Positions 18,532 to 56,195 of a stretch of DNA of 64,000 nt are shown piece after piece; the first letter of the stretch is position 1; each line of letters opens with the position of its first letter. The translations under genes and the position numbers were made by a program. This DNA comes from a virus, in IMG/VR virus record IMGVR_UViG_3300025120_000034, positions 1 through 64,000 of that record, one strand, 5' to 3'. Under the pieces are notes generated by a model. The model saw only the letters and a list, made by a program, of their open reading frames with translations. It did no database searches and was not told the DNA's origin.

Positions 18532-19452
18532 ATGGCTAAAGTAGATATTTATAAGAAAGTGACTGACCGAATCGTAGAAGGTTTGGAGTCAAAAGGTCTC
18601 CAGTGGTTTCGTCCTTGGAGCGGAGGTGACGGCATGATGTCTCCAATCAATAACTCGACTGGCAAGGCGTACAAGGGAGTCAACACCCTGTTCCTATGCG
18701 TAGAGCAGATGGAGCATGAGTATCCGCACAACGAGTGGTTGACATACAAGCAAGCTGTTGCCAAGGGGGGGCAGGTTCGCAAGGGAGAGTCAGGCACATG
18801 GATTGTCTTCTGGAACATCGTATTCCGTGGAGAGGACGGCAAGTTCTACCGAAAGCATCAGGATATCCCGAACGGCATGAAGTACGACAAGATTTTCACT
18901 CCTCGCTCTTGGAACGTATTCAACATCGCCCAGTGTGATGACATTGAGCCGAGACGCAAGCCTGTTGCTCCAGTCGAAGGTGTGGGCGAATTCACACCGA
19001 TTGACAAGGCTGAGAGAGTTTACAAAGAGCAGTACCCGAAGGACAATCGTCCAAGCCTGTCTCATGGAGGAGAGCGTGCGTTCTACGTTCCGTCACGTCA
19101 CCATGTGCAGATGCCGAATCCAGAGACGTTCGTCACCAACGACGATTACTACAAGACCTTGTTCCATGAGCTGGTTCACAGCACTGGACACGAAACAATC
19201 TTGAAGCGACTAGACAAGGTTGCAGCATTCGGAAGTGATGCGTACTCCAAGGAGGAGTTAGTTGCTGAGATTGGGAGTCAGTTCCTTGTGGGCCTCACTG
19301 GAATCAGCCCAAAGGATGATGAGCAGAATAGTCAGGCATATATCAATGGATGGGTTAAAGAGCTAAAGGATAAGCCAAAGATGGCCCTGTCAGCCGCGAC
19401 CAAAGCGATGAAAGCTGTGGACTACATGCTGGACGAAAAAGAGGAATCATGA
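18532..19452 (+). CDS. ardC: ArdC-like antirestriction protein
   Basis: 306 aa. Residues ~1-130 form the ArdC N-terminal ssDNA-binding domain (LQWFRPWSGGDG, NEWLTYKQAVAKGGQVRKGE, FTPRSWNVFNIAQCD). The C-terminal part is a zinc-metallopeptidase-like domain with the HELVH core (residues ~213-220, LFHELVHSTGHE) and a downstream EELVAEIGSQFL helix giving the third ligand. ArdC of plasmids protects incoming DNA from restriction. Early position and the absence of GATC in this genome fit a phage under restriction pressure. The match to the family is good along the whole length. Confidence 0.85.
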   Translation: MAKVDIYKKVTDRIVEGLESKGLQWFRPWSGGDGMMSPINNSTGKAYKGVNTLFLCVEQMEHEYPHNEWLTYKQAVAKGGQVRKGESGTWIVFWNIVFRGEDGKFYRKHQDIPNGMKYDKIFTPRSWNVFNIAQCDDIEPRRKPVAPVEGVGEFTPIDKAERVYKEQYPKDNRPSLSHGGERAFYVPSRHHVQMPNPETFVTNDDYYKTLFHELVHSTGHETILKRLDKVAAFGSDAYSKEELVAEIGSQFLVGLTGISPKDDEQNSQAYINGWVKELKDKPKMALSAATKAMKAVDYMLDEKEES

Positions 19453-29823: not shown

Positions 29824-30939
29824 CTACCAATGACGGCCCTCACTTTTAATAGTGGGGGCTTCTTGTTCTCTATAGAATGGGTCAAGCTCAGCTCCATAGC
29901 ATATCATTCCCCAATGCGCTAGCAATATTTGAAAGTCAATTACATTGAAGTATCCGTTACCATTGAGGTCCCCATCAATCCAGTAAGCATCGTCCCAGTT
30001 TGTTAGCATAAGCATTAAGTCCATCATGCCCACCACATGGTCTCCGTTTATATCGCCCACGCAATAGGGTGGTTGGTCTGTGATTCCCGGACGAAGTATA
30101 GGGAGTGCAGCATGTATTCTTTCTATCTGACCTTCTGTAAAGTTTGTTCTACATGAGTCAACGTAGTAATCCATATGATTATTCGGTGTGTAGTCGTAAG
30201 CTCCGGGTGGACAAATAGGATTAACACAGCTCCAGTTTATTTTAGTTGGAGGTGTATCACACACATAGTCTCCTGTCTCTAAGCAATCCCCTAAGACCTG
30301 ACCGCAGTTATCTACATTCCTAAACACATGATGCAAACCAACGAAGTGACCCACCTCATGTACTAATGTTTTGTTTTCCATTCTTGCAGAGTCTGTTAGT
30401 TGCGGCCCATACCTACCCGTCATATCAGACCTAACCCAAACTCCATCAAGGTCAGTCGAGGCATAGGCAGTCCAAGCAAATCCCAATATACCGCCGCAAA
30501 ACTGGGGGAATATATGTACATTCATATACTCCTCTCTATCCCATATTAAATCTTCTACATAATCTTCCATCCAGTTCCAACCGCTTGAACTGTAGGGGAC
30601 GCATACGTTGTTATTGCCTAGTATTTCTGGGGCTGCCCAGAACTCATCGAAGTTATGGTGCGAAATTGACACAAGGTCAAAGCTTATCATGGCCTCGCTA
30701 AACTCTTCATTTAAATGCTCGTGAGCATCCATAATAATGTCTTCTGAAATATAACTATAAGGAAAGCTGTCGGTGTAATGTACGTGGTAGACACAGTCTA
30801 TCTCCTCCCACTGGATAGAGCGAGACTGAAGCCCCATGAATTTAGCGTATACACTTTCCTCGGAACTAAAAACGATACATTCCTCTTGAGCTTGAGATGA
30901 TAAGCTAAGAAGAGAAAGAGTTAAAGTTAACCACCTCAT
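29824..30939 (-). CDS. secreted M43-type metalloprotease with dockerin-like repeats
   Basis: 371 aa. A signal peptide (WLTLTLSLLSLSSQAQ, cleavage near residue 18) is followed by a pappalysin/cytophagalysin domain. It has HEVGHFVGLHHVF (residues ~193-205), the extended zinc motif HExxHxxGxxH, and the Met-turn NHMDYY (about residue 253), so the site looks intact. The Cys pattern around CETGDYVCDTPPT is also typical of M43. The end has two dockerin-like units, GDINGDHVVGMMDLMLMLTN and GDLNGNGYFNVIDFQILLAH. It overlaps the holin gene by 4 nt and is last in the lysis operon. Host acquisition is likely; role unknown. Confidence 0.85.
   Translation of the reverse strand: MRWLTLTLSLLSLSSQAQEECIVFSSEESVYAKFMGLQSRSIQWEEIDCVYHVHYTDSFPYSYISEDIIMDAHEHLNEEFSEAMISFDLVSISHHNFDEFWAAPEILGNNNVCVPYSSSGWNWMEDYVEDLIWDREEYMNVHIFPQFCGGILGFAWTAYASTDLDGVWVRSDMTGRYGPQLTDSARMENKTLVHEVGHFVGLHHVFRNVDNCGQVLGDCLETGDYVCDTPPTKINWSCVNPICPPGAYDYTPNNHMDYYVDSCRTNFTEGQIERIHAALPILRPGITDQPPYCVGDINGDHVVGMMDLMLMLTNWDDAYWIDGDLNGNGYFNVIDFQILLAHWGMICYGAELDPFYREQEAPTIKSEGRHW
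29836..29865 (+). terminator. terminator-like hairpin between converging blocks
   Basis: GCCCTCAC - TTTTAATA - GTGGGGGC forms an 8-bp stem (one G-T pair) followed by TTCTTGTT on the plus strand. It lies 50 nt past the last plus-strand gene and inside the 3' end of the metalloprotease gene, stopping early transcripts from running into the late strand. Confidence 0.6.
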
Positions 30940-31382
30940 CTTTTTGTTTTTTCTATAGTTCTTCCTGCAAAGTAAGCCCCGAATACCGTAAGCATTAACA
31001 CTTGAAGAAGGTCTATGTAGTTCTCTCTTGGGGAGAACTCAGTGTCAACTCCATCCCAAATCATAACCACCATAAAAAAAGCAAGCATAGTGATTAGCAC
31101 GCTAGGTCTAATGAGCTTGGCTAGCTTTACATCGCTTGACATGTCTGACTCCCATCGCTTCGTGACGTTGTCCTGAGCATTCATCTCTTGTCGCGCAGCA
31201 ATCTCACTGAACTCCATTCGCTGCTCAGGCGTTAAGTCTGGCTCACTATCCACCAGTCTCTTTACAACACCCAGTACACCTTTGTCCGGAAGCGAGTTCC
31301 CTACCACATCCAGTACATGAGGTACACTCCTTGCCAGCCACTTTCCTACAGCTGTGTCCTTTAATTTCTTCTTGTCTTCCAT
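30936..31382 (-). CDS. holin-like membrane protein
   Basis: 148 aa. An N-terminal cytosolic part (LKDTAVGKWLARSVPHVLDV) is followed by two hydrophobic segments in the C-terminal half, SVLITMLAFFMVVMIWDGV (residues ~88-107) and LLQVLMLTVFGAYFAGRTI (residues ~122-140). This resembles the 3TM holin family of Bacteroidetes phages. It lies between the DUF5675 lysis-type gene and the protease. It overlaps the former by 137 nt in another frame. It would form the membrane hole that starts lysis. Confidence 0.7.
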   Translation of the reverse strand: MEDKKKLKDTAVGKWLARSVPHVLDVVGNSLPDKGVLGVVKRLVDSEPDLTPEQRMEFSEIAARQEMNAQDNVTKRWESDMSSDVKLAKLIRPSVLITMLAFFMVVMIWDGVDTEFSPRENYIDLLQVLMLTVFGAYFAGRTIEKTKR

Positions 31383-31836
31383 CTAAGTCTATATATGTGA
31401 TGCTACAGTCCTCGATTTCAATTGCATCTGCAATATCCGAATATATGGATTTGTAGGCTGTGATTGAAGAACCGACATATCCTGTAGAGTTTTTGTTTTC
31501 TGTTTGTGTGGCCCCAACAAGAAGGCAACCGCTGGTGTCATCATTATCGTTTCCACAGTGTATTAGTATGTGAGTGAAGTTAGGGACATCCATAACCTCA
31601 ATCATGCCTTTGTGAATTCCAGAAAATCTTTTTGAATACCTGTCGTGAAACCCGCCCCATGTTTTTAACCGGAGGTTGTATGTACCCGCAGGGATTCTAG
31701 TCTCATGCATAACCTTGGTTTCTCTGTACTCATCTTCCAAAGTGTAGCACATGAACTTGCGGCCTTCCGTTACATCAAACAGTAACCCAAGGGTATCATC
31801 CTTCTGACTGCTGAATCTGATTACCTCTAGTCTCAT
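31246..31836 (-). CDS. DUF5675 protein, probable lysis enzyme
   Basis: 196 aa. The first ~145 residues match DUF5675: FMCYTLEDEYRETKVMHETR, IPAGTYNLRLKTWGGFHDRY, FTHILIHCGNDNDDTSGCLL. The family shares an LD-peptidase-like look (conserved His and Cys in 'IHxGNxxxDTxGC') and is often placed next to holins. The last ~46 residues carry 8 Cys and lie over the holin gene in another frame, so they may be only read-through. Overlap of 4 nt with the 3322-aa gene upstream. Probable endolysin or virion peptidase. Confidence 0.65.
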   Translation of the reverse strand: MRLEVIRFSSQKDDTLGLLFDVTEGRKFMCYTLEDEYRETKVMHETRIPAGTYNLRLKTWGGFHDRYSKRFSGIHKGMIEVMDVPNFTHILIHCGNDNDDTSGCLLVGATQTENKNSTGYVGSSITAYKSIYSDIADAIEIEDCSITYIDLDGRQEEIKGHSCRKVAGKECTSCTGCGRELASGQRCTGCCKETGG

Positions 31837-34800
31837 TCTTCTATCGATTCAATGTATCGTTCTTGTACATAAAAGCTAGGCTTTACTAGGCTAAGATAAG
31901 TGTCAAGGAATAATTTAAATGCCTCGAAATCTTTTGGCTTCATGTTATCTTTCTTGCCCCTGAGATACGCATAGTAATCTCTAGCATTCTTCAATTGTTT
32001 AGGTAGCTTTCTGGCCTCCCTCATGTATACCTTATACTGTTCGGGATAAGAGGTTCTCATGTGCTGTTCAGCTATGACTGGCTTTACAGATGACTTGAAT
32101 GAGTTCGCAACTCTAATCTTATCGAATGGATTGTCTACCTGATTGATGAGTTTGATTAACCTTTCATCTCCCTCCCCTGAGATTACATCACGACCATATC
32201 TTTCTGCGATAGTTTCGTATGCAGCTAGCTGTTCTTCATTTGATAACCTTCTATCTCTTGGTAAGTCATCCAATGATGATATCAATTTTCTAACCTCGCT
32301 ACTGGATAGCCCTACCATTTGAGTAGCTGCTAACGTAGTCTTAAGAGCGAAGTGAAGCATCATTGAGTTCTTGTCCTCAGGTCTAACGTAATACTCTGCA
32401 CCAGTGGCGGTAACAACTTTGTTATTGGGGAGCTGTAAGTTGTGTACCGTAGTTACGATGTCATCAATATAGTCTCCGTAAGGTCCAGCCCAGCTACCAC
32501 CGTCTTCAAATACAGGGACACCCTTGTTTAATCTCACCCATCGCTCATACCCATCATCGTCACCAAGATTATAATCACCCTCTCTTGCCTTATCTAATTG
32601 ATACCACACGCTTCTGTTCAAAAAGGATTTCGCTTTGTTGTCTACCAAGGATAACGGAGGCAAAGGAGACATATCAATAGCCGTTTGAGTCGCAATATCT
32701 CTAAGTGTATTTGATTTTTTAGGAGCTTCTTCATCATCTTCCCCGAATAGCAACGCGCCCACATAAGCCGTAAGTCCCGCCAATACAATCTTATTGGTGG
32801 CATGGAACATAGCGGTCTCTACGCTATGACCAAGCATAGCAACTGCACCTTCGGACTTAACTTTTAAATCCTGTCTGCTCTTAGGTATTAGTCCGCTCAT
32901 CCCATCAGCCCCAACCATTCGCCACCAATCAGAAGACACGCTTCTCTTTTTGTTTATGCTAAACCTTGCAAATGGAATGAGAAGATTTTTAGCTATGTGC
33001 ATTCCCAAGTTGTTAAGACCTTTCTCTTGAGCATATATTTCAGCTGCCTCTCTAGTAGTGGATGCTGACTGGTCTTTAGCAACCATCATATCAGAGTAAC
33101 TCAAAGCTGTACTGTTGGGGTTCGCTGCCTCCGCATCCCAGTCAATCTCTTCAAAGCTATCTACAACGCCTTCGCTTATTAAAGCGTCCCCGTAGAACAT
33201 AAACCATGAAGCAACAGCCGCAATCTTATCTGTACCCTTGAGGTTTTTTAAACTTATGTTTGTTAGCTTTCTCTGTAGCTTTGCGAATCCACCTTCATCA
33301 AGGTTTAACTTACCTGTGAATGGGTCAATGTTTCCCGCTTCGTAATCCCTTTGAAACACAGGTGAATTTTGCAGTAGCTTGTATCTACCACCATCCATTG
33401 CTAGCTTGGAATCCTTTTTCGTTAGGGTCTCAATATTAAACATCATGAACTCTGACATTACCTGAATCAGATAAGGGATAGACTTCATTGGGTTGTTGGC
33501 TTGAAATGCAACACTCCACAGTACCTGTGATTGCTTTAATGTTTGAAAGACAAAGCCACCAAAAAGACTAACAACAACTGCATTTCTCAGTACGCTGATT
33601 GGGTTAACAAACTTAACCCCTCTTATCGTCTGTGTTGGCTGGAATGCCAACGGCACTGTAGCTGAATCCTGCTGAACATACAGCATAATCTTTTTCTCTA
33701 GGTCGAGTCTGGATTTTCTGTTTGGAATCAATGATGCGGCAGCGTCACTATTAATTACATGATTAGCAACAACGACATCCCCTATAGTATTTGATAGTAT
33801 AACGTTCTCTCGAATCGTTCTTTCATTTATAGCCACGAAGTCTAAGCCTATCTTGCTCTTCCCTTTTAGTGACCTTGGGTTTCTTTCAAAGCTGCTGCCT
33901 GCAACTTTCTTAGAATGAGACAGAGACGTACTAGCTAGTGACTGCTGAAGCGAAAGTCTTAAACTGAGTATGTCATCTACATCCTTGACCCCTGTCTCAG
34001 GTATAACCTTAAAGGCAGTGTAGTTCTCCTCTACCTCCAGCTCCTTTCCTAAATATCTCTCTACATAATTTCTAAACTGAGGCATCAAGGTAGAATGAAT
34101 GTCCGCCACAAACTGAACGAACCCAGTAATGTCAGACCTATCTCCCTCAACCCTTGCAATCATATCAGATAGCGTTTCGTTCTCATTGAACATGTAAGAG
34201 TACGCATCCTCGAATTCATTTATCTCCTCAATAGGGTATGTCTTTTGTTCAATGTAGTCGTCAATCGTTCTTCTCATTGAATCTCTAAGCTCTATATACC
34301 AAGCTGCTTCAGCTCCACCACGCTCACCCTCGAAGCTCGGCATCTGTCTTGCCATTGAATATAACTGAGCGATTGCCCTGTCATATCTAGTACCAACACT
34401 ACCACCCTCTTCCGATATCCTGTCAATCTCTTCGCTAATCATTTCAGTTAGCTGTGAATGAATGAAGTCGGCCTTAGCAAAGCTTCCAACAAGCTGAGCA
34501 ATACCAAAGCTAACCCTAAGCTTAGCTGAAGTAATCCTGTCTGTTGGGATTAGGTTCTGAAGGAATGAGTTTATTGTTCCGAACGGAGCCAAGAAAACAT
34601 TTGGTCTAGACTTCAATCCCTTTGACCGCGTGAGTTTAGATAATGAAGATGGTAGGTCAATGTTACCTCTAACCAAGGAGTGCATATATCCAATGCCGTA
34701 CACAGAATCATTTACAATGTAATCATCAAGCCTATAGTCAAGGTTGATTACGTGATGTCTCTTTAACAGGTTTAATCTATCTCTTAATACATCTAGGTCT

Positions 34801-37800
34801 AAGTCTTCAACGCTATGAATCCCCAATATCTCAGCAATGTGATTGTCCTCTAGTAGCTTCTCAATGTTGGCGGCTATCCTAGGTATTAATACATCGTTGA
34901 TTATTGCGTCTTTCTTTAGCTCTTCTTTTGTAGAAGCTTGCTCTGCTAGAATCCCTGTTACGATATCAATGTGAGCTGGGTTGCTTTCGTTTAGAGCTAT
35001 CGTCTCCCCGGTATCAGGGTTTACAGCTGTAGGGTTTTCGTCAATGAATTTAAGTATCGCTCTTCTGCTTGAAGACAATCTACTTCTTTCATAGTTCTTT
35101 AGTAGCTTTTCGTACTCCTGCTGAACGCTTGTACCGTTTTTAATTGCTCTTGATTGCGCCCTAGCCATGAACAATGACTGCCGACCAAGCTCCTCCATTG
35201 CGCTGTAATTGCTTAGTCTATTATACAGAGCCTCAGCAGTGGTCTTAGTGTAATCCACACCAACATAAGCCTCCAGTTCTTTATCGAATACAGCTTCAGA
35301 CTTCGACATAGACGCGATAGTCTCCATGATAGTAGCAACGAATCCCTCAAGTTCTTTTTGAGGCAGGAGTGCTGGGTTAATAGCAGCTAATCCTCTGGCT
35401 ATCTTGGCGTATGTAGTTACATTCTTGGGTGAAGAACCTCTACCTTTTACCTTAGCCATTTTCTTTAGCCTCTTCTGTAGAGACTGAGCATACTTAATAC
35501 CCTTAAGGTATTTATCCATTTCAGCCTTGGCATCTCGGCTATCGAATATCACAGATATCTTGTCAATGAATGACTGCATAGAGTCAAGACCTTCGCTCTG
35601 TGCTTTCTTTGCGCTAGTCCTATGAGCTTGCCGGATGAACTTAACAATGCTATTTACCTGACCCCTAGTAAACGGTGTCTTAGAGTTCTCTTTCATCCTA
35701 GCGTCAATGAGCTCGATGGCCTTTGCTAAGAATTCATTGAATGTACTTGACTTGTCTCTTAACTCCTCTAGTGACTTCTTTAGATTACGCGCCTTGGTTG
35801 ACAGCTTCTTTGCGTCAGCTGCATTCTTTGAAGCAACACGCATACCTTCTTTCTTGCCTTGAGTCCTTCCTTGCTTGTAGGCTACCGCCTGCTTAAACAT
35901 CATCTCGGAACCCTCCTTAGAGAAGCCCATGTCAACTAAAGTTTTAATTACCTCCGCCTTGGTGTGCGCGAAAGCATCTAGCTGTGAGGTTTCATCAAGC
36001 CCTGTGACAGGATTCTTTCTTCTCTTATCACGATTTACAATTGGTGATGGGTACTTCTGGTCTATCAATTGAGACACTTGTTTTAAGAAGCTGCCTTGAG
36101 CTTTTGACTCTTGAGCTACGATAGCTTGAGCCTTGGTCTTAACCTTACCCGTTCCGAAGGCTTGATTTCTCATGCCTAGAAGAGCGTACCATGCTGACTC
36201 TGCTGCTTTCAGCGGGTCTTTAGGTGTGCCGTCTTTCCTGAACCTCCCTTCATATTTGGAAGAGAACTTGTCTATAAAAGGTTGCTTTTCAAAACCTCTT
36301 TCAGTAGTAAGAATATCCTCTGCTGACTCTTTGTCTTTAAATAAGTGAAGAGTTGAATTTTTCTTGTTGCCTTTTTCGTCTACCTGAAACAGTGCTGCGG
36401 GGAATATAGGTGATGACTCTGGCTCCATAGCAAAAGACAGGTCGGAGTCAATCTCTACGGCGGCGTAAATCATTCCTTGAGGAACGCCCTGCAAGAAATT
36501 CTCAGTAAGCATCTTAGAAACCACACCCTTAGGAACGCTTCCGCCTTGAGCCTTACCTATTTCCTCACTGTTAAGGAGTTTCTGGACAGCTAGTCTAGCT
36601 TCTTCATTTTCTTTTAGAGCGTCTCGCATATTAACAAACAACCTATCCGTGTAATACTTTCTCTTACCGAAGGTTGATTCATTTACATCCCCCATGTAAG
36701 CAAGTATTCTTTCTGCTACATCTGAGAATGAACCGTCAATTCGGATTGGCTTTTTCTTTGGAAACGTTTGCTTAAACGATTTAATCAGAAGCTTATTAAA
36801 CACGGACTCAGGCATAACACCCTGCTCAACAAGCTTTCTAAGTATGATTTCAGAAGCCTTAAGAGCCCCTGTATTACTGAACAGCTTCTCTTGTGTTCCG
36901 CTAATCAAAGTAAAGAAGACTTTACCATCAGGAGACTTCTTGCGCATGGCATTAATCTTATCGACCATTTCCTTGGCCTCCTTTGGTTTGGCAACAGCCC
37001 ACACATTACCAGTTCTTACAGGATAGAATACACCACCACCGCCCGTGAATATTAATTCATCCTCAAAGTATACATCACCAACCATTAGGTTGTCTGGAGA
37101 CGATGTAACTATAGTCCTTCCTGCCAGTAATTCATACACATCAGCATCATGCTTAACCACCTTGCTCATCAACTTCTTAAACTCCTTGTCGTCTTTACTG
37201 TATCTGTTGGAGAAGCTACCAAACTTCTGAGCTTTGTTAGAAAAAGTTTGAGATGTAGATAATCCGGTTTGACCGGGAAGCACCTTCTGAAACTTTACAG
37301 CTGAACCGTCTTTATTAATTACGTTAAACCTTTCATCAGACACAGCCACCTTTTCGGCGTTCTTAGCCAAAACTAAAGCTCCTATTTGAATTACTTCAGA
37401 AGCAGATACAATAGGCTTTCCATCTCTCTTGTCATAGAACCAGCTGTGACGGAAGGGATTCATACCAACTTGAATCCAACCCTCAAGCTTTCCTTCTCCG
37501 AGTTCTGATTTGTTGTACTCCTCACTAGCCATGATGTCTTCAGCCCTGTCTCTCAATCCCTGCGGGTCATGATTATTCCAGTCACCAAACATCCTAGCTA
37601 TTGTTGTTTTCCCCTTTTCAAGAGCTATGTTTAACGCTCCCTTGGCTATGGATTGAAACTCTACATTGGTGGCTAGTGCTGTTTGAGCATACCCAATTGA
37701 CTTGCCGCCTAAGTTTGGAGTCCTCTCTTCACCTCTAGCACCTTGGTGTACTGACACAACCCATACATCATAGTTATCATATGCGGGAATATCCAGTCTA

Positions 37801-40800
37801 AGACCAACGTAATAGTTCTCAGGTATTTCTTTGTTAACACCTATGATACCAGACTCAACCTTATTACTTGTAAGTGCAGCCACAATGTCCATAGTAGTAG
37901 GTACTGCCGGAACAGAAACAAATGGCGTTATTGGTGACTCCTCCCTTACAACTTGTATGTATTGGCTTTGATTAATTTCTTGAGCGACATAATTCTTTAA
38001 AGCATCTACAACCTTAGGACTACGCTTTTGTCTTTGACTTTCATCTAGCTTTAAATCTTCTCTTCGCTTCTCTAGCTGTTCTTCGGTAACGCCTTCAGCA
38101 GATAAAAAAGACTCTCTACCCGGCTTATCTTCTAGTGATTTTATGACTAGGGCCTGAGCCTTTCCGTTAGCCTTTCCTTCGGCATAGTTATAAGCTTCCA
38201 TGTAGTCGCTCATTCTAATACCATCACCAATATTACCATCACCCTTGACAAAGAACACAACGTCAGGCTGGTCTTTAAGGGGAGAAGATTCACTATCCCA
38301 TCCGTCTGGTGCAAACTCAGGATTGAAGTCAAGCCTAGCAACTGGCCTCCACCCGTTGTTTACGTACTGACGTTCAAGGTCTGTTGCAAATGCATCATAA
38401 AACTTACCACCCTCTCTACCTCTAATGATTTGTAGTGGGTAGCTGACAGCTTTTAATTGAGAGTCTGGGTTTTTAAACAACCCCCCCATGTATCCGTCCT
38501 TGTTAACGTAAGCTCCAGCTAGTCCATCTTTAGTCATGAACAGTTTACCACCACCATCTAGAATTTCCTGAGCCTCTTCTTCCGAAAGGGGTGTCACTTG
38601 TAGTGCCATGAGTTTACCCATGTCTCGCATCCTGCGAATAGCATCACTCATAGCTGTAGAGAACTGGGCAGCGTCGTTCACCTCCTCAACATCTCTCATT
38701 CTAGCGTTAATGCCTTGGGCCTTGGAGCTCATGTCGTCGAGCTCAACCATCATAGCGTTATAACCAGCTCTTATTGCTGCTTCCCGAACGTCTTGAGTTC
38801 CTGTTACAGCCTCACCAGAGGCTAGCTGACCAGTCATTTTTTGAATAGCTGTGACTAGGTCTTGTTGTTTTGGGTCAACGTCTGTGAAGTCAACGCTTAC
38901 ATTAGGTATCTTATTTAAGGACGTATTGATAAAGCTCTTGAGAGAGTTTACCAGTCCTCTTTTTACCGTGGCCTCTAAGCCTCCTGTAGTAATATCAGCA
39001 AGCAATTCAACCAAGAACTCCTCTGCTACAGCGGGGTTGTTTAAAATGGCTTTACGAATGTTTCCCGCCGCACCATACTTCTTTAGGAACTCAACATATT
39101 TTGGGCGTAGCTCACCAGAAAGATTTGCGAAAAGCTTTTCCGCTAGCCCTGTAACAGCTTCAACGCCTATTGACTCAAGGACCAAGTCGTGAAACGCCTC
39201 GTGAAATCCTGTATTTTCTAGCACCGCAGGAGCATAGATATGAATCTTTCCTTTACCAGTCCACATACCCCTAGCTACTTCTCCAGCCGCATCCTGAAAG
39301 GAGCTCTCGGTCTTGTGAATAACAACCCCATCAAGCTTGCCCGTTTTTGATAGAGCTTTTACAACCGTCATGACGTTAGCCATTGCTCGCCTCATCTGAG
39401 CACCACTCTTAAATGTCTTGTCTTCTATCTGACGGACACCATCTAAGGTTGTGCCATTGATAGCGTCAAGCACGGCATCTACATTTTCTCCAGTCACGGT
39501 AACTGAATCACCCTCTCCTTGGAATATCTCACCGTATCCATTGTACCTCTCGTCTATCTTAGACACACCCCTAAGTATTCTTCCAACTTCACTGCTTGAG
39601 TTTAGGTCATATTCTAAACCAAGCTCAGCCTCTTTCTTAGTTCGTTCGTCAATCAAAGCTGTGAGCTGTCCTTTTAAAGTGCCCCTCTCGCTTTCGCTTT
39701 CACTTCTGCTATGGTCAATGCCTAGCTTTGCAATCTTCTTTTGTATCTCCTCAAGACTGTTGAATGCCTCTGGGTTTGACTCTTGAAGTTGTTCGTAGAA
39801 CTTAGAGCGTCCAAGCTTTTTGTCCCACGCTTTCATCACAGCTGCATTTAACTTCTCGCCAATCTCTTTTCTGAGGGCTTGACTCTCCGCCACATCATAC
39901 TCACGAGCTAGCTTTTTAATCTCAATGCTATCCCTTAGTCCGGGTATAGATGTAGCACTCATTGCTGCTGCACGGATACCAGCAGGAAGGTTGGCAGCTC
40001 CAGCTACCCCAGCACCTAGAAAAGCACCAGCATAAATCCCCTCTTTAGTTGCTTCCCAAAGTCCAGCTTGACTGAACTCTACGTTAGGGTTAGTAATTGA
40101 GTTGATGTAGTACTGTCCAGCTGCTGTGACTCCCTCTGTAATAGCCTCTTCAGTAGCACCTGCAAAAACAGATTTAATCAATCCTTTCGCAAAAGACTCA
40201 ACAGACCTTTTACCAGCAGTTCTTAGTACGTTTGTTGCAATGGCTGCGCCGACAAATGCTGGTGCTCCTTCAAGGAATCCCATCGCGCTTGTGTATCCAG
40301 CTTTCTCAAAACCATCCATCTCTTGAAACCAACTCTCGTCTCTTACCGAGTTGTATGTAGATGCCATACCCATTGCGGTAGTAGCTGTTAAGGCTCCCCT
40401 GTTCTGAGCTTTCCCAGCCTGCTTAGCAATCCTAGCAGACGTAGTTGTCTTTTGTGATTTTCCTAATAGGTTTGTAGAGCGTACAGCATTTAAATCTTTG
40501 TTCGCCTCTAGAATTTTTCGACCAGCAGCAACTTTGTCCGCGCCCTTAAGCTTACTGAACTTCCTACCAATCCCCATGCCTCTAGTTGCACGACCACGAG
40601 TGACAACACCTGCCGCTAAAGCCGCACCCATCATTGGTACTGACTCACCGAACATCCGTAAGTTTTCATTCACCCAAGAACCTATGTTCGCTGTGGTGGT
40701 CTCGTCCTCATCTACACCACTACCGATACCCGTAAACTCTGTGAATGTCTTGCCAAATAACTGTTCGGTTCTTGTGGCATAACTCTGAAGAGAGAAGGGT

Positions 40801-41801
40801 AATCTTTTCTCAGCCTCTTCCGCTAGGTTTCTGCTATCCTGACCAGATTGATGTGCCCATCTGCTAAACATATTGTCCTCGCCGAAAACAGAAGAGACGG
40901 CATCGCCCGCCAGCAGCTTACCACCGGCCATAGCTTCGTGCCACGCCCTTGCTATCGAAGTCCCCGTGCCTGAAAAAGCACCGCCCTTCAGAACGTCATA
41001 ACCACCAATATACGTATCCTCATTAAGGTCTACAGCTATATTGTATTCATCAAATAAGTACCTTTCGTAGTCGCTTATTTTCTGAGGGTCGTCTTGAATT
41101 TCTTGTGGGAGTAGCTCTCTCACAGCTTGTGCATTTTCCCTAGCGGCAGCACTACCGATATCCTTTATAGCGTCTGCCATTGGGACCGACAGTGCCTCTC
41201 TCTCTAGCGCACCCTCACCCTCAAACTCTGCGCGGCCAGTCATGTGTCTAAAAACCCTCTCATCAGAGGAACCTACTACATATCTACTGACCTCATAGTC
41301 AGAGTCCTCCTCAATCATGTAGTAGTCAACAATATCTGACTTAGCCTCTAGCCTTTCAGCCTCAGAATCAGCTGTGTCAAACGCCGTTATTAACTCCCGT
41401 TGGGCATCATTAGCTGAACCTTCATAATCTAGTATCTGCTTGTACTTATCTACGTCAAATCGGTCATATAAAACCGAGGTGTATGAGTTCGAAAATTCAG
41501 ACGCTAATAAATCAAGAGCATCAGCCTCATATTGAGGCACTCTCTTGTTACCAATCAGTGGTCTTTGAAGTACATCCGAAAGTGTAAGCTCTTCGCCTCC
41601 CTCCAAAGTTGAACCCTGCCTTGAACCCAACGAATCCTCCTCCGAAGTGGACGGAAAAGTCGCAATAAGAGGTGGGGTAATCTGTTCGGATAATTCTTTT
41701 TTTTTTTGAGCTTTATACTCATCAAGCATTCGAATCAACTCTTCTCTTGAAGCTCCGTTTGCACGGGCCTCAATCAACATGGCTTTTATTGTTTCATCCA
41801 T
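31833..41801 (-). CDS. giant polyvalent ejection protein (3322 aa)
   Basis: An internal virion protein likely injected with the DNA. Order: an acidic N-terminus; Ala/Gly-rich amphipathic stretches at ~385 and ~500-620; a zincin-like HEAFH site (NTGFHEAFHDLV, ~865-873). Next come a domain at ~1280-1500 (YVGLRLDIPAYDNYDVWVVS, GDWNNHDPQGLRDRAEDIM) and another at ~1580-1810, both of the kind seen in 'large polyvalent' phage proteins. Long helical segments follow, then a hydrophobic region near ~2740 (NAVVVSLFGGFVFQTL), and finally TAYVGALLFGEDDEE near ~3010. No RNA polymerase or lysozyme motif was seen. It is the largest gene, ~18% of the genome. Confidence 0.75.
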   Translation of the reverse strand: MDETIKAMLIEARANGASREELIRMLDEYKAQKKKELSEQITPPLIATFPSTSEEDSLGSRQGSTLEGGEELTLSDVLQRPLIGNKRVPQYEADALDLLASEFSNSYTSVLYDRFDVDKYKQILDYEGSANDAQRELITAFDTADSEAERLEAKSDIVDYYMIEEDSDYEVSRYVVGSSDERVFRHMTGRAEFEGEGALEREALSVPMADAIKDIGSAAARENAQAVRELLPQEIQDDPQKISDYERYLFDEYNIAVDLNEDTYIGGYDVLKGGAFSGTGTSIARAWHEAMAGGKLLAGDAVSSVFGEDNMFSRWAHQSGQDSRNLAEEAEKRLPFSLQSYATRTEQLFGKTFTEFTGIGSGVDEDETTTANIGSWVNENLRMFGESVPMMGAALAAGVVTRGRATRGMGIGRKFSKLKGADKVAAGRKILEANKDLNAVRSTNLLGKSQKTTTSARIAKQAGKAQNRGALTATTAMGMASTYNSVRDESWFQEMDGFEKAGYTSAMGFLEGAPAFVGAAIATNVLRTAGKRSVESFAKGLIKSVFAGATEEAITEGVTAAGQYYINSITNPNVEFSQAGLWEATKEGIYAGAFLGAGVAGAANLPAGIRAAAMSATSIPGLRDSIEIKKLAREYDVAESQALRKEIGEKLNAAVMKAWDKKLGRSKFYEQLQESNPEAFNSLEEIQKKIAKLGIDHSRSESESERGTLKGQLTALIDERTKKEAELGLEYDLNSSSEVGRILRGVSKIDERYNGYGEIFQGEGDSVTVTGENVDAVLDAINGTTLDGVRQIEDKTFKSGAQMRRAMANVMTVVKALSKTGKLDGVVIHKTESSFQDAAGEVARGMWTGKGKIHIYAPAVLENTGFHEAFHDLVLESIGVEAVTGLAEKLFANLSGELRPKYVEFLKKYGAAGNIRKAILNNPAVAEEFLVELLADITTGGLEATVKRGLVNSLKSFINTSLNKIPNVSVDFTDVDPKQQDLVTAIQKMTGQLASGEAVTGTQDVREAAIRAGYNAMMVELDDMSSKAQGINARMRDVEEVNDAAQFSTAMSDAIRRMRDMGKLMALQVTPLSEEEAQEILDGGGKLFMTKDGLAGAYVNKDGYMGGLFKNPDSQLKAVSYPLQIIRGREGGKFYDAFATDLERQYVNNGWRPVARLDFNPEFAPDGWDSESSPLKDQPDVVFFVKGDGNIGDGIRMSDYMEAYNYAEGKANGKAQALVIKSLEDKPGRESFLSAEGVTEEQLEKRREDLKLDESQRQKRSPKVVDALKNYVAQEINQSQYIQVVREESPITPFVSVPAVPTTMDIVAALTSNKVESGIIGVNKEIPENYYVGLRLDIPAYDNYDVWVVSVHQGARGEERTPNLGGKSIGYAQTALATNVEFQSIAKGALNIALEKGKTTIARMFGDWNNHDPQGLRDRAEDIMASEEYNKSELGEGKLEGWIQVGMNPFRHSWFYDKRDGKPIVSASEVIQIGALVLAKNAEKVAVSDERFNVINKDGSAVKFQKVLPGQTGLSTSQTFSNKAQKFGSFSNRYSKDDKEFKKLMSKVVKHDADVYELLAGRTIVTSSPDNLMVGDVYFEDELIFTGGGGVFYPVRTGNVWAVAKPKEAKEMVDKINAMRKKSPDGKVFFTLISGTQEKLFSNTGALKASEIILRKLVEQGVMPESVFNKLLIKSFKQTFPKKKPIRIDGSFSDVAERILAYMGDVNESTFGKRKYYTDRLFVNMRDALKENEEARLAVQKLLNSEEIGKAQGGSVPKGVVSKMLTENFLQGVPQGMIYAAVEIDSDLSFAMEPESSPIFPAALFQVDEKGNKKNSTLHLFKDKESAEDILTTERGFEKQPFIDKFSSKYEGRFRKDGTPKDPLKAAESAWYALLGMRNQAFGTGKVKTKAQAIVAQESKAQGSFLKQVSQLIDQKYPSPIVNRDKRRKNPVTGLDETSQLDAFAHTKAEVIKTLVDMGFSKEGSEMMFKQAVAYKQGRTQGKKEGMRVASKNAADAKKLSTKARNLKKSLEELRDKSSTFNEFLAKAIELIDARMKENSKTPFTRGQVNSIVKFIRQAHRTSAKKAQSEGLDSMQSFIDKISVIFDSRDAKAEMDKYLKGIKYAQSLQKRLKKMAKVKGRGSSPKNVTTYAKIARGLAAINPALLPQKELEGFVATIMETIASMSKSEAVFDKELEAYVGVDYTKTTAEALYNRLSNYSAMEELGRQSLFMARAQSRAIKNGTSVQQEYEKLLKNYERSRLSSSRRAILKFIDENPTAVNPDTGETIALNESNPAHIDIVTGILAEQASTKEELKKDAIINDVLIPRIAANIEKLLEDNHIAEILGIHSVEDLDLDVLRDRLNLLKRHHVINLDYRLDDYIVNDSVYGIGYMHSLVRGNIDLPSSLSKLTRSKGLKSRPNVFLAPFGTINSFLQNLIPTDRITSAKLRVSFGIAQLVGSFAKADFIHSQLTEMISEEIDRISEEGGSVGTRYDRAIAQLYSMARQMPSFEGERGGAEAAWYIELRDSMRRTIDDYIEQKTYPIEEINEFEDAYSYMFNENETLSDMIARVEGDRSDITGFVQFVADIHSTLMPQFRNYVERYLGKELEVEENYTAFKVIPETGVKDVDDILSLRLSLQQSLASTSLSHSKKVAGSSFERNPRSLKGKSKIGLDFVAINERTIRENVILSNTIGDVVVANHVINSDAAASLIPNRKSRLDLEKKIMLYVQQDSATVPLAFQPTQTIRGVKFVNPISVLRNAVVVSLFGGFVFQTLKQSQVLWSVAFQANNPMKSIPYLIQVMSEFMMFNIETLTKKDSKLAMDGGRYKLLQNSPVFQRDYEAGNIDPFTGKLNLDEGGFAKLQRKLTNISLKNLKGTDKIAAVASWFMFYGDALISEGVVDSFEEIDWDAEAANPNSTALSYSDMMVAKDQSASTTREAAEIYAQEKGLNNLGMHIAKNLLIPFARFSINKKRSVSSDWWRMVGADGMSGLIPKSRQDLKVKSEGAVAMLGHSVETAMFHATNKIVLAGLTAYVGALLFGEDDEEAPKKSNTLRDIATQTAIDMSPLPPLSLVDNKAKSFLNRSVWYQLDKAREGDYNLGDDDGYERWVRLNKGVPVFEDGGSWAGPYGDYIDDIVTTVHNLQLPNNKVVTATGAEYYVRPEDKNSMMLHFALKTTLAATQMVGLSSSEVRKLISSLDDLPRDRRLSNEEQLAAYETIAERYGRDVISGEGDERLIKLINQVDNPFDKIRVANSFKSSVKPVIAEQHMRTSYPEQYKVYMREARKLPKQLKNARDYYAYLRGKKDNMKPKDFEAFKLFLDTYLSLVKPSFYVQERYIESIEE

Positions 41802-55338: not shown

Positions 55339-56195
55339 TATCCAACGTTTAAGTTACTATTACCTGCGTTATTACTGGTAGCACTCATTGGCCCAACGTG
55401 TGCCAATTCAGTGTAGTTTACTCCATCATTTGACCCTTCAAACAATAAATGAAAAGCGTACAGCACGTTCAAGTTCATGCTCTTAATGGTTGGAGGGGTG
55501 CTATAGGTTCCCGGCTCAAATTCAATTTGAAGGTATTTTGGAGTACCGCTTATGCCCCAAAATCTCGTAGAAGTACTGCTGTCAAAAGCCTTGTACTTAT
55601 AATTGGTTGAATACACAGCTGACGAGGTTAAAGCGATACCCGTTTGACTTGTATTAGAACTAAGGTTTGTGGTTGGGTGATTTGTTCCTGTTTGACCCGC
55701 CCCCTCATACAAAGACCAGTCTCTTATAGATAACCATGAAGTACCGCTTGTCCCTTTGGTGGCGTTCGTGTTGGTCAAGCGGATATATCTATAAGCAGTG
55801 AAAGACGGCGTATAAGTCAATGTTAGTGCTGTACTTTGTATGTTATCCCCAAACTCCTGAGCCTTGACTGTTACGGTGCGTTCTGCTGTGCTTGTGTTTG
55901 TATCGGTAAAGGTCATGACTGGCCCCAATGAATCATCGCCATTGTCCATAGCGTGATTTACATCTGCATCAGCAACGATTTCCGTACCGCCAATTGACAC
56001 GGATACTGAATAATTAGGATTTGTATAGCTAGAGTGATTACTAATTATGACTGAACCCTGCCCAAAACCGAAGGAGATTGAAGCCGTCGGTGTGGTTGTA
56101 GTTGTACCACCACCACTGCTGGTTGCTATATCAACACCGCTTATTTTTTCAATATCAGCCATGTCTATTCCGCTGTACTTTTCAATATCTGGCAT
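55338..56195 (-). CDS. appendage/structural protein with discoidin-like C-terminus
   Basis: 285 aa. A short repeated-looking N-terminus (MPDIEKYSGIDMADIEKISG), a Gly/Thr linker, a beta domain (SISFGFGQGSVIISNHSSYT), then a C-terminal region that looks like a carbohydrate-binding F5/8 (discoidin) fold: YRYIRLTNTNATKGTSGTSW, then RFWGISGTPKYLQIEFEP and HLLFEGSNDGVNYTELAHVG. It could recognise host surface glycans. The first ~30 residues appear to belong to genome B while the rest is shared with A (see repeat). Confidence 0.7.
   Translation of the reverse strand: MPDIEKYSGIDMADIEKISGVDIATSSGGGTTTTTPTASISFGFGQGSVIISNHSSYTNPNYSVSVSIGGTEIVADADVNHAMDNGDDSLGPVMTFTDTNTSTAERTVTVKAQEFGDNIQSTALTLTYTPSFTAYRYIRLTNTNATKGTSGTSWLSIRDWSLYEGAGQTGTNHPTTNLSSNTSQTGIALTSSAVYSTNYKYKAFDSSTSTRFWGISGTPKYLQIEFEPGTYSTPPTIKSMNLNVLYAFHLLFEGSNDGVNYTELAHVGPMSATSNNAGNSNLNVG
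55920..56046. repeat. 127-bp exact direct repeat (copy 2; copy 1 at 1-127)
   Basis: Identical over 127 bases with the first 127 bases of the window, then diverging. The switch from genome A to genome B is placed here or within the following ~950 bp, before the first GATC at 56991. Confidence 0.9.

Follow-up and report, generated by a model that had tools for sequence, protein, structure and literature searches.

A conserved M43B metalloprotease of exported type in a swappable, holin-linked cassette of Bacteroidota-type phages

The stretch of viral DNA analysed here (the window: 64,000 nucleotides, positions 1 to 64,000 of the 71,553-bp IMG/VR virus record IMGVR_UViG_3300025120_000034) encodes a conserved, selected pappalysin of exported type, carried in a mobile cassette that is linked to holins. 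The activity, latency, timing and substrate that we infer for this enzyme are discussed below. Its protease family is already known; the phage lineage, the short architecture and the genomic setting are new. To our knowledge, phages are not noted for carrying secreted proteases, which are known tools of Bacteroidota.

The surrounding contig is that of a phage, with terminase, portal and structural proteins related to those of Flavobacterium elemo phages and Cellulophaga phages. The assembly is probably chimeric or over-extended, having passed from one phage to a related one where the two share sequence: a 201-bp repeat (1-201 and 55920-56120, 97.5% identical) joins two versions of the packaging/structural block, at 1-16 kb and 56-71.5 kb, whose nucleotide identity is ∼68%. 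The protease gene lies 25 kb from this suspected chimeric join, its neighbourhood recurs in the independent contigs L043 and L044, and 66 other contigs carry the gene between phage flanks. Misassembly, which the first-pass annotation of this DNA had considered fatal to its reading, and host contamination are therefore rejected.

Table 1. Positions of the protease gene, its domains and neighbours in the window, and of proteins in related loci
Feature	Position	Strand	Basis or remark
M43B (unicellular pappalysin-type) metalloprotease, 371 aa	29824..30939	-	Pfam M43 and fold match
Signal peptide, residues 1-17	30889..30939	-	Sequence; predicted cut leaves N-terminal Gln18
Short putative pro-segment, residues 18-44, with candidate switch Cys21 (codon 30877-30879)	30808..30888	-	Cys in 50/50
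Zinc-binding motif HEVGHFVGLHH, residues 194-204	30328..30360	-	H194, E195, H198, H204 invariant, 50/50
Met-turn NHMDY with Tyr258, plus Asp261	30157..30180	-	M256, Y258 in 50/50
Two-loop Ca-binding dockerin-like C-terminal domain, residues 293-347	29899..30063	-	Pfam Dockerin_1; loop Asp in 50/50
Holin, 148 aa	30936..31382	-	phrog_3427 (PHROG 3427), E=2e-16
DUF5675 protein, candidate endolysin by position	31246..31836	-	Pfam DUF5675, 3.5e-27
3322-aa late protein upstream of cassette	31833..41801	-	ORF list; layout of MT497072
Cys-rich T9SS cargo of relatives	L139:4435-6576, L105:4435-6843, L133:4538-6967, L125:6042-8183, L141:4423-6546		Behind holin
Barrel-like ∼345-aa family of relatives	L139:6573-7607, L105:6840-7877, L133:7164-8210, L144:4435-5532		
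Longer M43 class of relatives	L203:13594-15501, L135:5962-7860, L205:9512-11398, L222:16169-18085, L234:13213-14967		

Domains, fold and conservation of the protease

The protein, read from an ATG start codon, passes the curated Pfam cut-off for Peptidase_M43 (E=1.3e-17, 64.5 bits against a cut-off of 23) and carries a signal peptide and two calcium loops, so the earlier description of a phage-encoded, secreted M43-type protease holds. The elements on which that description relied, namely the zinc motif (H194-E195-V-G-H198-(5)-H204), the Met-turn (M256, with Y258), the signal peptide and both calcium units, are all intact in the reading frame. Counting over 50 distinct full-length relatives, we find the zinc ligands, the catalytic Glu, the Met-turn Met and the Tyr to be invariant, as are the Asp residues of the dockerin loops; Cys21 occurs in every sequence and ten other conserved cysteines each in 49 or 50. 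The broken active site that would have counted against the annotation is thus not found in these relatives. Residue 261 is acidic throughout (Asp in 41, Glu in 9), and the counterpart of Asp261 in mirolysin is Asp289, associated with an S1' preference for Lys/Arg (mirolysin numbering, PMC6949598).

The C-terminal domain is bounded by Cys293 and Cys347 and has the two F-hand calcium loops of a type I dockerin, with all ligand positions filled (D296/N298/D300/D307 and D324/N326/N328/D335) and a Pfam score at the cut-off: Dockerin_1 falls slightly below it by hmmscan (E=0.0011) and slightly above it when scored in the genome frame (24.6 against 22.9 bits). The resemblance to dockerin calcium repeats therefore stands, but no cohesin partner was found in the 71.5-kb record, and we call the domain dockerin-like only.

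Searching IMG/VR with the single protein gave 37 loci and with an alignment 66, down to 38-40% identity, and further relatives came from holin-anchored and helicase-anchored scans. The rarity suggested in the first-pass annotation is borne out among catalogued phages, in that PHROG holds no match to the protease and INPHARED one weak match (35% identity over 29% of the protein); nor did we find a useful match in the literature on phage M43 proteins together with holins. The protease points to a class of exported phage cargo absent from current phage protein libraries.

The protein is under selection, with a median dN/dS of 0.081 over 23 pairs and 0.16 between the window protease and its nearest allele. 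An AlphaFold model built with 52 more diverse sequences reached pLDDT 80 (25 close sequences gave 54) and matches PAPP-A2, PAPP-A, mirolysin and ulilysin with E 4e-11 to 2e-9, so the structure prediction called for at the outset agrees with the family assignment. Taken with the Pfam match, the fold and the dN/dS rule out a chance motif. In both sequence and fold the closest matches are ulilysin and PAPP-A/PAPP-A2; PAPP-A is built of many more domains, whereas the phage protein is compact and ends in the dockerin-like tail. A first scan of genome contigs returned no relatives, and the alignment scan returned only cellular Bacteroidota M43 proteins at 30-35% identity, so a recent host donor was not found; furthermore, deep support in the tree is weak, and the donor cannot be firmly stated.

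Among viral structures, BFVD gave significant matches only to proteins of giant viruses and to a matrixin from the Maribacter phage Colly. The latter, a 199-aa zinc metallopeptidase of phages Molly and Colly (PMC8776804; BFVD A0A8E4XY18), is likewise an exported-type metzincin in a flavophage, but it is a matrixin-like lipoprotein with a weaker fold match (E 4e-5), is too short to hold a dockerin-like domain, and has no reported holin linkage. Another protease gene on a Bacteroidota phage, bfp3 of the Bfgi2 prophage of Bacteroides fragilis (PMC2873492), encodes a C10 cysteine protease of different fold and belongs to a temperate phage.

Holin linkage, exchange and the post-holin position

The coupling of protease and holin by a 4-nt overlap, as annotated, is read directly from the sequence as ATGA, and the upstream partner matches a holin family (PHROG 3427). 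The holin gene in turn overlaps that of the DUF5675 protein by 137 nt (31246-31382) in a different frame, an arrangement shared by L043 and L044. The 3322-aa protein beyond stands where Flavobacterium elemo phages have a giant structural protein (layout of MT497072). It contains a HEAFH motif and may hold a second zincin-like domain. Within the 3' end of the protease gene, a hairpin at 29835-29860 reads as a terminator for convergent plus-strand genes; such hairpins are no more frequent here than in shuffles.

Following the suggestion that M43 genes be sought beside holins, we found a recognised holin at most 2.6 kb upstream of the protease in 45 of the 56 loci with 5' context, directly in 25, after one to three intervening genes in 17, and belonging to a different holin family in three; of the upstream junctions measured, 32 are ATGA overlaps. 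Small genes between holin and protease (L002:7795-8004, L011:1516-1803 and L011:1800-2120) encode coiled-coil proteins with a single TM segment, similar to i-spanins, and a ∼106-aa secreted protein that has a Q-rule start and may be thioredoxin-like.

The protease gene is nevertheless an accessory, swappable cassette, present in about a fifth of holin-bearing relatives. An M43 gene lies within 4 kb in 17 of 78 holin-anchored loci and is present in 9 of the 47 helicase-anchored loci that have a holin in reach, both sets being biased to close relatives and not de-duplicated. The gene has moved elsewhere in L050-L053 and L055-L056, with no holin adjacent, and two of these contigs have their holin near the helicase instead. 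In L038 the protease is a pseudogene, broken by about ten small indels next to holin and upstream ORFs that are still open; that of L058 carries one frameshift. Compared with L043, the window is ∼90% identical in nucleotides through the DUF5675 and holin genes and again downstream, but only ∼70% over the protease (protein identities: protease 68%, holin 97%, helicase 99%). The comparison with L002 is the reverse, with the protease gene 89% identical over 952 nt amid genes that show poor alignment or none (protease 85%, holin 50%, helicase 55%). We conclude that the protease gene is exchanged as a unit.

In relatives lacking the protease, other ORFs fill the place behind the holin, often again through ATGA. 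Some encode proteins of 690-810 aa that begin with a signal peptide, contain 30-39 Cys and end in type IX sorting domains, the last scoring above the NCBIfam cut-off in L139, L105 and L133. Signal-peptide proteins of ∼345 aa follow this T9SS cargo; judged by eye alone, they resemble outer-membrane barrels, and neither Pfam nor NCBIfam matches the copy in L139. Elsewhere the position holds proteins of 430-870 aa with no signal peptide. A second, longer class of phage M43 proteins (584-638 aa, with calcium repeats and in several cases a T9SS-like tail, judged by eye) lies mostly near helicase and replication genes in other members, and the tree separates it from the short family, with weak deep support.

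These results bear on whether the protease belongs to the lysis machinery, as its first-pass placement in a lysis operon implied. In that case it might replace a spanin and perform the outer-membrane step, cleaving proteins that anchor the outer membrane to peptidoglycan. Its location is suggestive, last in the late block after the holin and DUF5675 genes, where a spanin classically sits and where most loci show the recognised holin upstream; moreover, only unimolecular spanins are reported for Bacteroidetes phages (PMC12596118), and an unsystematic look noticed none in the window. Yet a core lysis gene should be retained with its holin, and this one is missing from about 80% of holin-bearing relatives, has decayed beside an open holin in L038, lies away from the lysis module in six loci, and in many others stands behind a spanin-like single-TM coiled-coil protein. 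We therefore regard a spanin-replacing role as unlikely. Such patchiness speaks against a core lysis role generally, and the allele swapping and the unrelated secreted proteins in the same position tell against the lysis-operon reading; distribution and slot contents together fit a gene for accessory secreted cargo that is expressed along with the lysis genes.

Export, latency and possible roles

The signal peptide, with its cut site predicted by eye, reads MRWLTLTLSLLSLSSQA before the cut and QEEC after it. A Gln stands at Cys-3 in 45 of 50 distinct relatives, and an N-terminal Gln obeys the Bacteroidetes Q-rule (PMC5837995), which fits a Bacteroidota host. No T9SS C-terminal sorting domain was detected in the window protease by NCBIfam search.

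The protease is probably a zymogen, since its invariant Cys sits at the place of the cysteine switch of mirolysin, the M43B protease of Tannerella forsythia, whose expressed pro-form starts at Gln20 and whose zinc is bound by Cys23 (PMC6949598). The Q-x-x-C spacing is identical in the two proteins (Gln18/Cys21 in the phage, Gln20/Cys23 in promirolysin), and nearly all sampled Bacteroidia M43 proteins have a Cys soon after the signal peptide. Furthermore, the commonest number of cysteines in the mature protein is 11 (33 of 50), an odd number that would leave one unpaired if the rest pair as in mirolysin, with extra pairs such as Cys293-Cys347. The spacing, the placement and the odd count together suggest a cysteine switch. 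Latency is nonetheless something that we infer, because the Gly of the mirolysin Cys-Gly motif is not conserved (the Cys being present in 50/50), the pro-segment is ∼30 residues shorter than in cellular relatives, the anchoring Arg at Cys-2 is replaced, mostly by Asp or Glu, and the AlphaFold model has low confidence across this segment. The two enzymes otherwise share the metzincin fold, the extended zinc motif, the Met-turn with Tyr at +2 and the acidic S1' residue at Met+5, and calcium dependence would be expected by analogy; the phage protein differs in having more conserved cysteines and predicted disulfides and a C-terminal dockerin-like domain.

Our preferred model, which we hold to be reasonably probable, is that an M43B zymogen is exported and becomes active late, as accessory cargo and not as an essential lysis protein. 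Judging from the ATGA overlap, the protease would be read with the late/lysis transcript through coupling to the preceding lysis-module gene. Host Sec and signal peptidase I would export it, baring the N-terminal Gln, and, if mirolysin is a guide, the single Cys of the short N-terminal segment would hold the zinc until that segment is cut away or displaced, while calcium in the exported environment would stabilise the catalytic and dockerin-like domains. As the short family has no T9SS tail, the enzyme would be periplasmic before lysis and reach the outer surface only then; it would thus be active in the periplasm, be released in bulk at lysis, and cut before Lys/Arg. The likeliest targets would be outer-membrane and surface proteins of the host, phage receptors included, on the dying cell, debris and vesicles. 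Such cleavage would free progeny and stop wasteful re-adsorption; granting the model, we give these targets and this benefit somewhat less than an even chance.

The contents of the slot and the swapping of alleles favour a function at or beyond the cell surface, where variation is an advantage, and the protease probably serves late-released remodelling of surfaces or surroundings rather than core lysis. Tentatively, we extend this to the post-holin position as a whole, which in a large Bacteroidota-type phage group may be a dedicated slot for exported cargo that remodels the host surface or surroundings at lysis. Its alleles would be traded like receptor-linked genes, and the protease, activated by export and calcium, would destroy receptors. 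On this equally tentative proposal the slot would hold M43 zymogens, Cys-rich T9SS-secreted proteins and barrel-like outer-membrane proteins. Variable, swappable exported-cargo genes are also found in Cryophage (PMC7468147), where they encode an endoglucanase, GH39 and PA14 with T9SS tails, which the phage protease family lacks. Our leading guess for the protease, drawn from analogy and allele swapping, is the clearing of receptors from debris, although we would call even this rather doubtful. A functional parallel is lytic conversion in phage T5, where Llp protects progeny from binding receptors on debris; Llp is a receptor-blocking lipoprotein, not a protease. A conserved, swapped, latent-type protease behind holins suggests that lytic phages, too, devote resources to biochemistry at the surface or outside the cell when they lyse it, and it offers a testable entry into flavophage cell exit, debris avoidance and competition.

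Might the released protease instead attack extracellular proteins of competitors, grazers or particles, to the advantage of later hosts or sister virions? M43 enzymes secreted by Bacteroidota do work extracellularly (mirolysin, PMC6949598), and the same slot holds T9SS cargo in relatives, the Cryophage counterparts having been proposed as secreted factors (PMC7468147); but the benefit to a lytic phage after lysis would be diffuse and nothing here points to such substrates, so we consider this improbable. Least probable is an entry protease packaged in the virion by contact with the giant late protein encoded alongside, for although the gene adjoins the late/structural block and calcium-loop domains can mediate binding, the protein has a clear signal peptide with a Q-rule cut, and its gene is coupled to the holin, not to structural genes, and is exchanged independently of its neighbours.

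Elsewhere in the window, at 18532-19452, an ArdC-type anti-restriction protein carries a zincin-like metallopeptidase domain.
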